From SAR202 cluster bacterium (GTDB lineage: Bacteria; Chloroflexota; Dehalococcoidia; UBA3495), in NCBI GenBank assembly GCA_009392775.1, contig VFFT01000109.1:1-21619 (forward strand): 21,619 nt of DNA, read 5' to 3'. Shown here piece after piece: positions 2,353 to 17,598 of this stretch. The translations under genes were made by a program, and so were the position numbers. Every line of letters begins with the position of its first letter. The stretch's first letter is position 1. The notes under the pieces were generated by a model that was not told the origin of the DNA, did not search any database, and saw only the letters and a program-made list of their open reading frames with translations.

Positions 2353-3426
2353 CTATCGGACAGCAGCTGGTTTGCCACTTCCTAATTCCTCGTGAGCCCA
2401 GCCAAGCAGGTCAACTGTTTCCTGCCAACCTATGCAAGCGTCCGTAATGGAAACACCATATTCTAGTTGTGAGAGGTCTTCACAGAGTTTTTGATTTCCA
2501 GGATTAAGATTACTCTCTAGCATACACCCAATGATGTCTGCGTCACCGGAGGCGCGTTGAGAGACTACGTCTTTGAACGCCATGCCCTGTTTGGTATGGT
2601 CTTTATAAGAATTCCCGTGGCTGCAATCTACTACTAGTTGAGATCGCACTCCTCCAGCAGTTAGTCGTTCTTTGGCATCTGCTACGTCGTCGGCGTGATA
2701 ATTCGGGCCGCTGTTACCGCCTCGCAACACTAAGTGCCCGTCGGGGTTGCCCGTTGTTTTGATCAGGGCTGTACGACCATCGGTATCTAAGCCAATAAAT
2801 CCATGAGGGCTTCGGGCCGATAACATGGCGTCCACAGCTATTTGCGCATTACCATCAGTGCCGTTCTTGAATCCCACGGGCATGCTTAATCCACTAGCCA
2901 TTTGCCTATGTATTTGACTCTCGGTAGTTCTTGCGCCAATTGTAGACCATGTAATCAAGTCGGCCAGGTATTGTGGAACTATCGGGTCTAAGAATTCTGT
3001 ACCTGCGTACATTCCCATCTCGTTTATCTTAAGTAATAGGGAACGAGCTGTTTTGAGACCGCCCTCGATGTCAAAGCTATCATTCAGATGTGGATCATAT
3101 ATTAGACCTTTCCATCCTACTGTAGTACGGGGTTTCTCAAAGTAGACTCGCATGACAATCAGCATTGTGTCGGATACCTTTTTGGACAATTCAACTAATT
3201 GAGATGCGTACTCAAGGGCAGATTCTTCGTTATGTATCGAGCAGGGTCCTGCAACAACAAGCATACGATCATCTTGACCGTCGAGAATTTTACGAAGTTG
3301 CTCCCGTCCAGAAAGGACGACCTCTTTGGCTTTATCTGACAGGGGTATCTCTTTAATCAATTCTATAGGTGTTATTAAAGGTTGTGTATCCATTACGTGT
3401 ACATCCCTTGTTGATGACGACTGCAC
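2353..3426 (-). CDS. aroF: 3-deoxy-7-phosphoheptulonate (DAHP) synthase, class I (AroF/AroG/AroH type)
   Basis: Condenses phosphoenolpyruvate with erythrose 4-phosphate, the first step of the shikimate pathway to Tyr, Phe and Trp. At 357 aa it matches the E. coli type in length. Visible signatures are GPCSIH (residues 60-65, with the metal-ligand Cys), RVYFEKPRTTVGWKG, EFLDP, GARTTESQIHRQMASGLSMP, GFKNGTDG, LRGGNSGPNY, DCSHGNS and ESNLNPGNQ. The start is GTG at 3426 with GAGGAG 6 nt upstream; a small 6-bp hairpin (3443-3458) sits directly before that site. The gene has its own promoter and a Tyr-rich attenuator leader, so its expression is probably tied to tyrosine supply. Chorismate mutase and trpA lie immediately upstream on the same strand. 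The symbol aroF is used for the enzyme class; which E. coli paralogue it equals, and which amino acid inhibits it, cannot be read from sequence. Confidence 0.96.
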   Translation of the reverse strand: MQSSSTRDVHVMDTQPLITPIELIKEIPLSDKAKEVVLSGREQLRKILDGQDDRMLVVAGPCSIHNEESALEYASQLVELSKKVSDTMLIVMRVYFEKPRTTVGWKGLIYDPHLNDSFDIEGGLKTARSLLLKINEMGMYAGTEFLDPIVPQYLADLITWSTIGARTTESQIHRQMASGLSMPVGFKNGTDGNAQIAVDAMLSARSPHGFIGLDTDGRTALIKTTGNPDGHLVLRGGNSGPNYHADDVADAKERLTAGGVRSQLVVDCSHGNSYKDHTKQGMAFKDVVSQRASGDADIIGCMLESNLNPGNQKLCEDLSQLEYGVSITDACIGWQETVDLLGWAHEELGSGKPAAVR

Positions 3427-3505
3427 GGTAGACTCCTCTTTAAAGTATTTTTATACTTCGGATGTTTATTATTTAACTAGGTCAGAAGTATGTTTCCCTT
3501 GAAGC

Positions 3506-3535
3506 AAAAACCCCAACCTGTTTGGCTGGGGTTTT
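3506..3535 (-). terminator. Attenuator terminator in the DAHP synthase leader
   Basis: On the minus strand AAAACCCCAGCC pairs with GGTTGGGGTTTT (12 pairs, one G-U, 5-nt loop), followed by a five-T run. It lies between the leader peptide stop (3563) and the DAHP synthase start (3426), so it is an attenuator and not a gene-end terminator. Its 5' arm is also claimed by the antiterminator at 3531-3577. Confidence 0.88.
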
Positions 3536-3577
3536 GGTGTATTTCTGACTTTGGGGTGGTTTCTATAGCACCAAAAC
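3531..3577 (-). promoter_or_regulatory. Antiterminator pairing of the DAHP synthase attenuator
   Basis: GTTTTGGTG (3569-3577), inside the last codons of the leader peptide, is perfectly complementary over 9 bp to CACCAAAAC (3531-3539). The latter contains the 5' arm of the terminator. A mismatch and two further G-C pairs extend the helix. Pairing here and terminator formation exclude each other, as in trp/phe-type attenuators. Confidence 0.8.
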
Positions 3578-3643
3578 TCCGCTGGTCCGGTCGGTACCAG
3601 TAAAGTAATAATAGTATTCGTATGAACCCAACAAGTTAAACAT
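3563..3643 (-). CDS. Tyr-rich attenuator leader peptide for DAHP synthase
   Basis: A 26-codon ORF from ATG at 3643 to TAG at 3563-3565. Residues 7-14 read SYEYYYYF, that is five Tyr and one Phe within seven codons (3602-3622). The peptide ends in VLVL, and those end codons form the antiterminator strand. A ribosome stalled at the Tyr codons would leave that strand (3569-3577) free to pair with the terminator 5' arm and allow readthrough. A ribosome reaching the stop would cover it and permit termination. The predicted transcription start coincides with the A of the ATG (7 nt after the -10 box), and there is no room for a Shine-Dalgarno, so translation is probably leaderless. Expected regulators are charged tRNA-Tyr and, secondarily, tRNA-Phe. 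This is read from sequence and classical attenuation logic; no homologue was looked up. Confidence 0.82.
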   Translation of the reverse strand: MFNLLGSYEYYYYFTGTDRTSGVLVL

Positions 3644-3650
3644 CAATGGG

Positions 3651-3680
3651 ATTATACGAGATACGTCCGGGAAGTGTCAA
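3651..3680 (-). promoter_or_regulatory. Strong sigma70-type promoter of the DAHP synthase transcript
   Basis: Perfect TTGACA (3675-3680) and perfect TATAAT (3651-3656) on the minus strand with an 18-nt spacer. It lies just beyond the chorismate mutase stop codon, giving DAHP synthase a transcript independent of trpA-aroH. The predicted start is at about 3643. Confidence 0.85.
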
Positions 3681-3721
3681 TCGAGCGCCGGGACAAGTTT
3701 GAGATGAAACTCAGTATATGG

Positions 3722-4090
3722 TTATTCGGGTAGTCCTTGAGAACGAAGGGCGTCAGTCCCATTTAGATATATGTTTGTGACTTCTGATTGGGGAGTATCT
3801 GTGTTGTAGAGGATCAATATCCTTACACAACCCTGCATGCTTCCTGGGACGGGTATTTCGCGTGCGCACATCAATGCTGTAGTGTTCCAGCCCAGTTGTC
3901 GTGCCGCAGCTGCCGGAAAAACTGCATCTAGGTCCTCCGTCACAGTGAAGAAAACCATAGCCACGTTGGGTTCTTCCAGATGATTGGCCTCGATTAATTC
4001 AGAAAGTAGTTCCTTCGTAGCCCCATAGATTTCCTCTGCTGTATTTCCGGATGCTCGCGTAGCACCACGTATTCCTCTACATTCTGTCAT
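3722..4090 (-). CDS. aroH: Chorismate mutase, monofunctional AroH type
   Basis: Converts chorismate to prephenate, the branch step toward Phe and Tyr. The 122-aa product matches the trimeric Bacillus subtilis AroH fold along its length, not the all-helical AroQ class: RGIRGATRAS at the N-terminus, AVFPAAAARQLGW in the middle, and CAREIPVPGSMQGCVRIL. Expected active-site residues are present at the equivalent places: Arg8 (B. subtilis Arg7), Glu78, Arg90 and Tyr108. The frame stays open upstream to 4228, but that part overlaps trpA in another frame, has Arg-rich nonsense composition and is not part of the family. ATG at 4090 has AGGA 9 nt upstream and is chosen. The gene begins 11 nt after the trpA stop, so the two are probably cotranscribed. 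(In enterobacteria the symbol aroH means a DAHP synthase; here it means the Bacillus-type mutase.). Confidence 0.94.
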   Translation of the reverse strand: MTECRGIRGATRASGNTAEEIYGATKELLSELIEANHLEEPNVAMVFFTVTEDLDAVFPAAAARQLGWNTTALMCAREIPVPGSMQGCVRILILYNTDTPQSEVTNIYLNGTDALRSQGLPE

Positions 4091-4101
4091 TGCACTTCGT
4101 C

Positions 4102-4896
4102 CTAGGATTTCTTGCCTGATAGATTTGATACAAGATCGGCCACGTTTGCGATTATTTTGTCTTCGGGGGAATCCAACATCGTACGAATCAGCGCGCTTCC
4201 TACAACTGCTGCGTCGGCTTCGTTGCATACTTCTAATACATGCTCACGGCTGGAGATGCCAAAACCGACGGCGAGAGGCAATGATGTATGACCTTTAACA
4301 CGCTGGATGAGATCTAACCCACGATCGGAGACATCTTGCCTAGAACCGGTTACTCCGGTCACACTTACGCAGTAAATAAAGCCTGATCCGACGGTAAGGG
4401 TCCCAGCTATCCGGTCTGCAGCGCTTGTTGGAGCCAATAGAGGAATGATATGAAGCCCGTGTTCTGAGCATGCACTCTGAAGAGGAGTGATTTCCTCCCA
4501 TGGTAGGTCCACTACTATGAGTCCATCAACTCCAACGGAAGAACATTTGTGAGCGAATTCTGCTATCCCGTAGTTAAAAATCGGATTGTAGTAACCCATT
4601 AGGATTAGTGGAGTCGTTGGTATGTCTTTCCGAACCGCCTCGACGATATTTAGACAGTCATCAATAGTGATACCGTTTTCGAGGGCGATGTTGGTTGATT
4701 CTTGAATAACTGGACCGTCTGCCAACGGATCACTAAAAGGTATACCGAGCTCAATTAGATCGGCCCCATTCTCTACTAAAACTGGTATAAGCTTTTTGGT
4801 TATATCTAGGCTAGGGAAGCCTGATGTGATGTATGTGACCAAACCGGTACGCCCGGATTGTCGTATGGATGCAAAAGTTTCTGTTACTCGGTCCAC
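4102..4896 (-). CDS. trpA: Tryptophan synthase alpha subunit
   Basis: Cleaves indole-3-glycerol phosphate to indole and glyceraldehyde 3-phosphate, passing indole to TrpB in an alpha2beta2 complex in the cytoplasm. The 264-aa TIM-barrel protein is of normal length. Catalytic Glu49 (in LIELGIPFSDP) and Asp60 (in LADGPVIQ) are at the standard positions. Other family blocks are LMGYYNPIFNYG, GLIVVDLPWEE, PLLAPTSAADRI, IYCVSVTGVTG, PLAVGFGISS and VVGSALI. The start is GTG at 4896 with GAGG 8 nt upstream. No trpB lies beside it in the window; the gene upstream (29 nt away) is a membrane protease. That suggests that the trp genes are dispersed or that trpB lies elsewhere. It continues into aroH, pairing a Trp gene with a Phe/Tyr gene. 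Confidence 0.97.
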   Translation of the reverse strand: MDRVTETFASIRQSGRTGLVTYITSGFPSLDITKKLIPVLVENGADLIELGIPFSDPLADGPVIQESTNIALENGITIDDCLNIVEAVRKDIPTTPLILMGYYNPIFNYGIAEFAHKCSSVGVDGLIVVDLPWEEITPLQSACSEHGLHIIPLLAPTSAADRIAGTLTVGSGFIYCVSVTGVTGSRQDVSDRGLDLIQRVKGHTSLPLAVGFGISSREHVLEVCNEADAAVVGSALIRTMLDSPEDKIIANVADLVSNLSGKKS

Positions 4897-17334: not shown

Positions 17335-17370
17335 AAAAAGACCCATCCCTATGAAGGGACGGGTCTTTTT
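17335..17370 (-). terminator. Terminator of the ilvB T-box leader
   Basis: On the minus strand GACCCGTCCCT pairs with AGGGATGGGTC round a TCAT loop, followed by a five-T run. The 5' arm competes with the antiterminator, in which AGGG and GCGGG of the T-box element pair with CCCGT and CCCT. Confidence 0.93.
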
Positions 17371-17598
17371 AATTTCCCGCGGTACCACCCTTCTTTCTCG
17401 ATCCCATAGAGACGCTGGTTAGCAATCAAAATCGAGACAGCTTGGAGACTGTTAACGGTGTCTGCCGCTCTCCCTACTCTAGTTCAGGAAAGCCACTCCT
17501 GGGCGAGTTCAGAGGTTACGCGTAACCGGAATCACACCATTCTCCGGCTCTCTGGTACGGTAATATCTCCTACTACTCCCATTCTAAGTGGGATATAC
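17335..17598 (-). ncRNA. T-box leader (leucine specifier) upstream of ilvB
   Basis: The minus-strand leader carries the T-box element AAGAAGGGTGGTACCGCGG (17377-17395), whose UGGU would pair with the ACCA end of an uncharged tRNA. Stem I has AGAGAG and GGTGTGA in its upper part, with CCGGA/TCCGG pairing. The specifier loop has AGTAG on one side and GAACTCG on the other, putting CTC (17505-17507), a Leu codon, at the specifier place. CCACT/AGTGG closes the base. Stem II shows the CTGAA and AGTAG turn strands. Stem III is CTCGAT/ATCGAG (17431-17436 with 17397-17402). Uncharged tRNA-Leu should stabilise the antiterminator and allow transcription of ilvB-ilvN-ilvC-leuA. This is an established transcription-type T-box architecture, and the match is unambiguous. 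Confidence 0.95.

Follow-up and report, generated by a model that had tools for sequence, protein, structure and literature searches.

Aromatic-codon leader peptides and a predicted transcription attenuator in front of DAHP synthase in Chloroflexota

DAHP synthase is the opening step of the aromatic pathway, and the locus described here raises the question of how expression of this enzyme is controlled in a bacterium of the phylum Chloroflexota. The window, by which we mean the whole 21,619-nucleotide stretch of DNA that was analyzed, comes from a SAR202 cluster bacterium (GenBank assembly GCA_009392775.1, contig VFFT01000109.1). A leader promoter, a short Tyr-rich ORF and an intrinsic terminator are found on its minus strand between the genes for chorismate mutase and DAHP synthase. 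Judged by sequence comparison, this element is very probably a ribosome-mediated leader-peptide transcription attenuator, whichever aromatic amino acid is its main signal.

The preliminary description of the locus had named a consensus promoter, a 26-codon leader containing SYEYYYYF, a 9-bp antiterminator and a 12-bp terminator with a T-run, and all of these parts were recovered at their coordinates on the minus strand. The sigma-70-type promoter (3651..3680) matches the consensus at 12 of 12 positions, with TTGACA at 3680-3675, an 18-nt spacer and TATAAT at 3656-3651. Seven nucleotides separate the -10 box from the ATG at 3643 of the leader peptide ORF (3563..3643), which encodes MFNLLGSYEYYYYFTGTDRTSGVLVL in 26 codons and ends with a TAG at 3563. 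Tyr is found at residues 8 and 10-13 and Phe at residue 14, and the aromatic control codons Y-E-Y-Y-Y-Y-F occupy 3602..3622; Tyr is also enriched in the leaders of relatives. Codons 23-25 hold the 5' strand of the antiterminator, GUUUUGGUG / GTTTTGGTG (3569..3577). On the minus strand GTTTTGGTG (3577-3569) is complementary at 9 of 9 positions to the 3' strand of the antiterminator, CACCAAAAC (3539-3531), which overlaps the 5' arm of the terminator. The intrinsic terminator (3507..3535) is a stem-loop of 12 pairs (3535-3524 with 3518-3507) with the loop AAACA, a folding energy of -19.2 kcal/mol and a z-score of -3.3. Its T-run (TTTTTGC, 3506..3510) is short, with five T only, four of them within the stem. 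The terminator was absent from the output of a simple terminator scanner.

A hairpin of segments 1 and 2, CUGGUACCGACCGGACCAG, is predicted by folding at 3582..3600, and its counterpart helix covaries in 24 aligned leaders. In the window this hairpin (3600-3582) does not overlap the 9-nt antiterminator strand, and folding of 3525-3600 shows the two side by side. In the loop part of segment 3 the window lacks complementarity (2 of 6 pairs), leaving only the lower 9 pairs. The regulated gene (2353..3426, minus strand) encodes a type-I, aroFGH-type DAHP synthase (PF00793, E 3e-85; NCBIfam aroFGH, E 1.2e-142) with a GTG start and AGGAG upstream. The upstream neighbor (3725..4150, minus strand) encodes an AroH-type chorismate mutase (PF07736) and falls outside any transcript begun at the leader promoter.

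The stretch from 3501 to 3690 is identical to locus L081 of genome G001, the nearest genome compared (90% of sampled words in common with the window), and L081 served as a stand-in for the window in the shuffle and ribosome-position computations. Compared with the nearest relative, L083, the leader codons show five non-synonymous and two synonymous differences, which leave the Tyr codons of the window unaffected. The same upstream scan found no Tyr-rich ORF before the second DAHP synthase of G001 (L082). A search of G001 for TAYTAYTAYTAY gave four sites against five for the reversed control pattern, and Tyr runs alone are therefore uninformative in this genome. Elsewhere in the window a T-box leader (17352-17595, minus strand; 119 bits against a gathering score of 93) lies directly upstream of the acetolactate synthase gene ilvB, so the genome uses T-box control too.

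The upstream regions of 139 Chloroflexota DAHP synthase genes were compared; the set covers 128 of 141 matches at the level of the order and 11 of 21 further ones at the level of the class, contig ends and the weakest matches being left out. An ATG ORF with at least three Tyr in eight codons was found within 350 nt upstream in 59 of the 139 regions, against a mean of 2.0 and a maximum of 7 in 20 shuffles, and 27 regions had at least four Tyr in eight codons, against 0.1-0.4 in shuffles. When all 20 residues were tried at four in eight, the excess of Tyr was by far the largest, followed by those of Phe (4 versus 0.6) and Val (3 versus 0.4). The control set comprised 69 DAHP synthase loci from other records, with eleven Chloroflexota-titled ones set apart. 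It contained one locus with at least three Tyr in eight codons (1.4 expected) and two, L017 and L029, with at least six aromatic residues in eight (0.1 expected).

A laxer ORF filter (at least two Tyr and at least four aromatic residues) was passed by 70 of the 139 regions. Sixteen were then dropped: four had no terminator, eleven had one weaker than -8 kcal/mol, and L136, in which the hairpin overlaps the ORF and is not followed by a T-run, was rejected by hand. The remaining 54 loci combine a Tyr/Phe leader with an intrinsic terminator at or below -8 kcal/mol, and within the order they carry 12 different family labels (f1, f5, f6, f7, f22, f28, f30, f33, f34, f37, f39, and f41). Of the 11 loci that belong to the class but not to the order, none passed this leader-plus-terminator filter. 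Across the leaders of the order the aromatic cluster is kept while other peptide residues drift. Thus two hallmarks of an attenuator recur as they do in the window, namely a short ORF that clusters codons for amino acids of the regulated pathway (Tyr and Phe before DAHP synthase) and an intrinsic terminator between this ORF and the gene.

By the filter, 85 of the 139 regions have no such pair, although some of these (L088 and L141) carry the element according to the covariance model described below. L100 has kept a similar terminator with a leader that has no Tyr cluster. In L085 and L086 the standard arrangement is absent; what can be read there by eye is a short FYY-containing ORF that encloses a hairpin. 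Fifteen aligned loci of family f28 have longer ORFs and no convincing intrinsic terminator; in 11 of them (L130, L133, L177, L181, L185, L189, L190, L192-L194, and L201) the ORF ends with YGRSYRS or similar, and a few further loci have an ORF ending with RRRRA or a related sequence. The long-ORF loci of f28 and the RRRRA-type loci may use another mechanism. The YGRSYRS-type ORF is conserved, about 50 codons long, contains Tyr codons and lies ∼140-330 nt upstream of DAHP synthase, with GGACG..CGTCC complementarity visible by eye around its stop codon.

The start of the leader was characterized by the position of its promoter. In 49 of the 54 loci an in-frame start codon lies 3-12 nt downstream of the end of a promoter matching at least 8 of 12 consensus positions; 48 of these promoters score at least 9, and 45 lie 7-10 nt before the start codon. 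Random anchors scored at least 8 in 86 of 1080 cases, a comparison that favors the real search somewhat because it could pick among several in-frame starts. Three loci (L094, L213, and L219) have no candidate promoter, and two (L105 and L135) have promoters scoring below 8. With the start codon this close to the -10 box, the leader mRNA is probably leaderless. The arrangement differs in this from the E. coli trpL, pheL and pheST leaders, which carry Shine-Dalgarno sites. Leaderless leader peptides are described for Actinobacteria in the accessible portions of reports on ilvBNC of Corynebacterium glutamicum (PMC11857589), on trpL, ilvL and leuL of Streptomyces lividans (PMC8079986) and on mycobacterial poly-Cys leaders (PMC9031893). 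Like these actinobacterial leaders, the present ones would be leaderless short ORFs with repeated control codons that serve attenuation; the amino acids, the genes and the phylum differ here.

To evaluate the antiterminator, the region from the footprint of the last Tyr codon to the terminator was shuffled 500 times. The best antiterminator duplex of L081 has an energy of -17.8 kcal/mol, whereas the shuffles averaged -7.5 kcal/mol and none of the 500 was as good. Ranked among its shuffles, the real duplex belonged to the best 5% in 41 of the 54 loci and to the best 1% in 30; the 13 loci outside the best 5% include six of the ten with a YYRPFYFYAYR-like leader. An antiterminator that excludes the terminator is thus found within reach of the stalled ribosome, which is a further hallmark of an attenuator.

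Covariation was counted on an alignment of 24 leaders and compared with 500 shuffles and six slid registers. The terminator helix 3:4 had 93.6% of cells paired, seven double-change pairs and a covariation of 0.349 (0.217 shuffled); helix 1:2 had 77.3% of cells paired, four double-change pairs and a covariation of 0.236 (0.159 shuffled); and the antiterminator helix 2:3 had 73.1% of cells paired and a covariation of 0.242 (0.176 shuffled). No shuffle out of 500 reached the covariation of any of the three helices, and each outscored all six slid registers, comparisons to be read with the caveats that related sequences can beat shuffles without structure and that the helices were chosen from the same sequences. 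For helix 2:3 neither the double-change pairs (5 versus 6.2) nor the further pair types (16 versus 17.7) were above the shuffles. Between clades the aligned antiterminator is displaced by one base (registers AT1 and AT2), and column-wise covariation therefore understates it. The three-way relationship is illustrated by L089, where segments 1, 2 and 3 read ACCGGC, GCCGGT and ACCGGC, and by L108, where they read ACCGAC, GTCGGC and GCCGAC. Adjacent helices are mutually exclusive wherever they have a segment in common. The proposal had been made dependent on finding Tyr-rich ORFs with covarying arms in related upstream regions, and with 12 family labels represented and covarying arms it survived that comparison.

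For the ribosome-position computations a stalled ribosome was assumed to cover 13 nt from the first base of the A-site codon. With the Tyr codons of L081 in the A site, a fraction of 0.57-0.70 of the terminator 5' arm was paired upstream before the 3' arm was made, and with the ribosome at the stop codon this fraction was 0.00. Given the assumed footprint, these values agree with the earlier suggestion that a ribosome stalled at the Tyr codons leaves the antiterminator strand free and one at the stop codon covers it. Early pairing of the 5' arm at the last Tyr codon had a mean of 0.73 over the 54 loci, against 0.45 with shuffled spacers, and was lower at the stop codon than at the Tyr codons in all 54, which is partly expected from the smaller amount of exposed RNA. 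At equilibrium the finished terminator of L081 was favored at every ribosome position (0.90-0.99), and any control would therefore have to be kinetic, acting during RNA synthesis.

In the mechanism that we infer from these parts, the attenuator would make expression of DAHP synthase depend on how far aromatic tRNAs are charged, chiefly tRNA-Tyr and probably tRNA-Phe as well. Transcription would begin at or a few bases from the leader ATG, and ribosomes would start on the leaderless message. A shortage of Tyr-tRNA (or Phe-tRNA) would stall the ribosome on the Y/F codons and keep codons 23-25 (segment 2) accessible; where a relative has a competing 1:2 helix, segment 1 would be masked as well if the ribosome stopped at the last Y/F codons. 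The free segment 2 could then pair with the emerging 5' arm of the terminator (segment 3), allowing the polymerase to continue into the DAHP synthase gene. When charged tRNA is plentiful, the ribosome would reach the stop codon and cover segment 2, the terminator 3:4 would form, and transcription is predicted to end near 3506.

In 197 genomes of the order, the element was searched for with a covariance model (R1) under strict filters, and 18 candidates were scored in each genome. The model gave 45 matches at E 1e-5 or better, a count biased towards the 22 matched loci on which the model had been trained. Forty-four lie directly before DAHP synthase and one before pheS (TIGR00468), the gene context of matches at contig ends having been read by eye. 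The pheS copy (L254 of genome G100; G100:C121:1200-3600, element at ∼298-422) encodes MCNTSITNFFTRFRFIG, with Phe and no Tyr. It has 149 of 198 aligned bases in common with the DAHP synthase element of a congener (L108), and the terminators are near-identical. In three congeners whose pheS is 90-93% identical, the model had no match at this place and the ORF scan found no such leader. Among 29 pheS upstream regions, the Phe-only element was found only in L279, which is the same place as L254; one of the 29, L307, was matched only from residue 124, and its upstream region is not the true one. A Phe-only copy in one genome is a lead rather than a proof. Elsewhere among the pheS loci, L281 has another ORF with PFFLDRF, and L282 has an ORF with three Phe in eight codons.

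Five of 30 trpE upstream regions contain an ORF with two Trp in eight codons. By eye, the ORFs of L315, L322, L324 and L334 lie out of frame inside the apparent end of the upstream coding sequence. That of L321 (G066) adjoins AGGGTGGCACCGCGG, which we take to be a T-box motif, followed by a terminator-like stretch just upstream of trpE. On this basis we claim no Trp leader before trpE in these 30 regions. Sixteen of the weaker matches of the covariance model appeared by eye to be mostly bare terminators or chance, L258 excepted. L258 (290-414, G066:C21) has six consecutive Cys codons (..LCCCCCCLTGVRG and a stop codon) and then a terminator; it has no clear start codon, and the ORF downstream of the Cys codons has no Pfam match. 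The Cys run resembles the poly-Cys leaders of mycobacteria, reportedly described by Canestrari et al. in 2020.

The preliminary description had called the element tyrosine-responsive. The clusters of the 54 loci contain 192 Tyr codons (TAT 107, TAC 85), 105 Phe and 13 Trp codons; there are 2-6 Tyr codons per eight-codon cluster, Tyr is usually dominant, and Tyr equals or exceeds Phe and Trp together in 48 of the 54. The responsiveness itself we infer. Phe is present in every one of the 54 clusters (Trp in 12), and for that reason codon content does not establish specificity for Tyr; the element may best be regarded as an aromatic, Tyr-dominated gauge. The same attenuator could instead answer mainly to the charging of tRNA-Phe or to aromatic charging in general, a rival on the signal and not on the mechanism, which we hold to be a serious possibility though not the favored one. 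Besides the presence of Phe throughout, it draws on the alignments, in which segment 1 is usually preceded by a Phe codon, the position at which a stalled ribosome would mask it best, and on the DAHP synthase leaders of two proteobacterial MAGs, described below, in which Phe dominates. It also has a parallel in the aroR leader of C. glutamicum (Phe-Tyr-Phe), which according to the accessible part of PMC11802643 answers to Phe and not Tyr. The excess of Tyr over Phe codons argues the other way, as does the pheS copy, whose lack of any Tyr suggests that the codons are matched to the gene under control.

Other readings dispense with attenuation by aminoacyl-tRNA supply altogether. The peptide sequence itself might stall the ribosome in response to a small molecule, as an arrest peptide or by another leader-peptide mechanism, and the leader is indeed kept as an ORF with a YxYYF-T-G core that recurs in part of the loci. 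The leaders of the different clades (YEYYYYFTG, YYRPFYFYAYR, YYYFSSL, YFTYYYYF, and WFAFYFYYG) have little beyond aromatic codons in common, however, which is a matter of codon content and not of a fixed motif in the peptide and makes this reading improbable. We consider it very improbable that the element is a riboswitch, T-box or protein-binding leader with an incidental short ORF. The genome does have the T-box before ilvB, but this is the sole T-box of the window and the T-box covariance model gave no match at 3400-3760. Rfam assigned no family to the element at gathering or permissive thresholds, the best score being 27.8 bits against a cut-off of 55 and on the opposite strand, and a leader of this type would not explain the excess of Tyr or its position beside promoters. 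The position between the two genes could also suggest a constitutive terminator of the chorismate mutase gene next to a chance Tyr-rich ORF. A 12/12 promoter and the ORF intervene between that gene and the terminator, and 54 of 139 loci show the same arrangement, where shuffles yield about 2 of 139 for ORFs with three Tyr in eight codons, so that hardly any weight is left to this explanation. The leader-peptide attenuator is the reading that we adopt.

A leader called aroR, located before the DAHP synthase gene aroF of C. glutamicum, was reportedly described by Neshat et al. in 2014. The earlier supposition that an attenuator of this type before DAHP synthase is uncommon does not hold within the order, where the element is common (54 of 139 loci), and aroR is a published precedent. 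In the accessible text of the sources, aroR is a Phe-Tyr-Phe leader that responds to Phe and not Tyr (PMC11802643, PMC4046766). Like the present element it is a leader-peptide attenuator with aromatic codons before DAHP synthase, but it is actinobacterial, whereas the leaders of Chloroflexota, another phylum, are usually Tyr-dominated. We regard the likeness as one in the way of working and do not file aroR as a homologue. The accessible part of one source lists trpL, pheL and pheST of E. coli as classical leader-peptide attenuators and describes E. coli aroF and aroH as controlled by TyrR and TrpR instead (PMC11802643). The classical attenuators have competing RNA segments, control codons, an intrinsic terminator and an aminoacyl-tRNA signal in common with the element proposed here.

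According to the accessible text of a 2010 terminator survey, leader-peptide systems were known only from Proteobacteria and Actinobacteria, and the survey added Firmicutes; the words tyrosine, DAHP and Chloroflex are absent from its main text as accessible (PMC2965389). An actinobacterial survey, in its accessible portion, did not find conserved RNA elements in front of Phe or Tyr operons (PMC1262725), and PMC9413887 mentions Chloroflexi in a reference title only. In the open-access literature, seen in part and with subscription papers mostly outside its range, we found no leader-peptide attenuator of Chloroflexota and no Tyr-codon leader. It is well supported by the comparisons that the element is a known kind of switch, here biased to Tyr and in a phylum for which we found no earlier report. 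Leader-peptide systems would thereby be extended to Chloroflexota. The Tyr-rich, Tyr/Phe, Trp/Phe/Tyr and Phe-only leaders form a natural series, some members of which stand on closely related RNA scaffolds, and the series is suited to testing which codon position and which aminoacyl-tRNA set the response. Regulation by aromatic amino acids in uncultured bacteria would become readable from sequence.

Aromatic leaders were also found beyond the order. A run of the model over 400 genomes of the phylum gave a match in G795 of family f121, where MLSSVRFYFAYYFNGLRSVAVGCA and a terminator precede genes for chorismate mutase (PF07736) and for a DAHP synthase with the ferredoxin-like domain PF18152. 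We take the PF18152-bearing DAHP synthase of f121 to belong to the type-I-beta subfamily. The family was sampled as the 30 best matches of 119 genomes (L338-L367), 27 of which have at least 700 nt upstream; an aromatic leader with Phe and Tyr, often also Trp, and a terminator were found in 25 of these 27 readable type-I-beta loci among the best matches. L364 and L365 have no leader, and the upstream regions of L341, L343 and L351 are too short.

The two control loci mentioned above also carry candidate leaders, MRFVSSLFYFWFYFINDKERFTRGI in L017 (a Pseudomonadota-titled MAG) and MIRPISALFFFWFYFSKDKDRFAWGD in L029 (a Deltaproteobacteria-titled MAG). Their clusters, LFYFWFYF and LFFFWFYF, are located ∼140-240 nt ahead of the DAHP synthase gene, and in both loci a GC-rich hairpin and a T-run come next. 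These leaders look real, and Phe-dominated aromatic leaders before DAHP synthase would thus not be confined to Chloroflexota. Taking these observations together, we lean towards the view that leaderless attenuation by aromatic codons is a standard control of shikimate entry in large parts of Chloroflexota. It would have arisen more than once, on both type-I DAHP synthase subfamilies there and apparently also in some proteobacterial lineages, with Tyr and Phe (in some clades also Trp) read as one gauge. Copying of the element to another gene would bring a change of control codons, of which the Phe-only pheS copy would be an example. In four loci of family f135 (L273-L276), a Val/Leu/Ile-rich frame recognized by eye (..ERVFVLITGSRRE..) and then a terminator lie before an ilvB-like gene, which in L273 encodes TPP enzyme domains.
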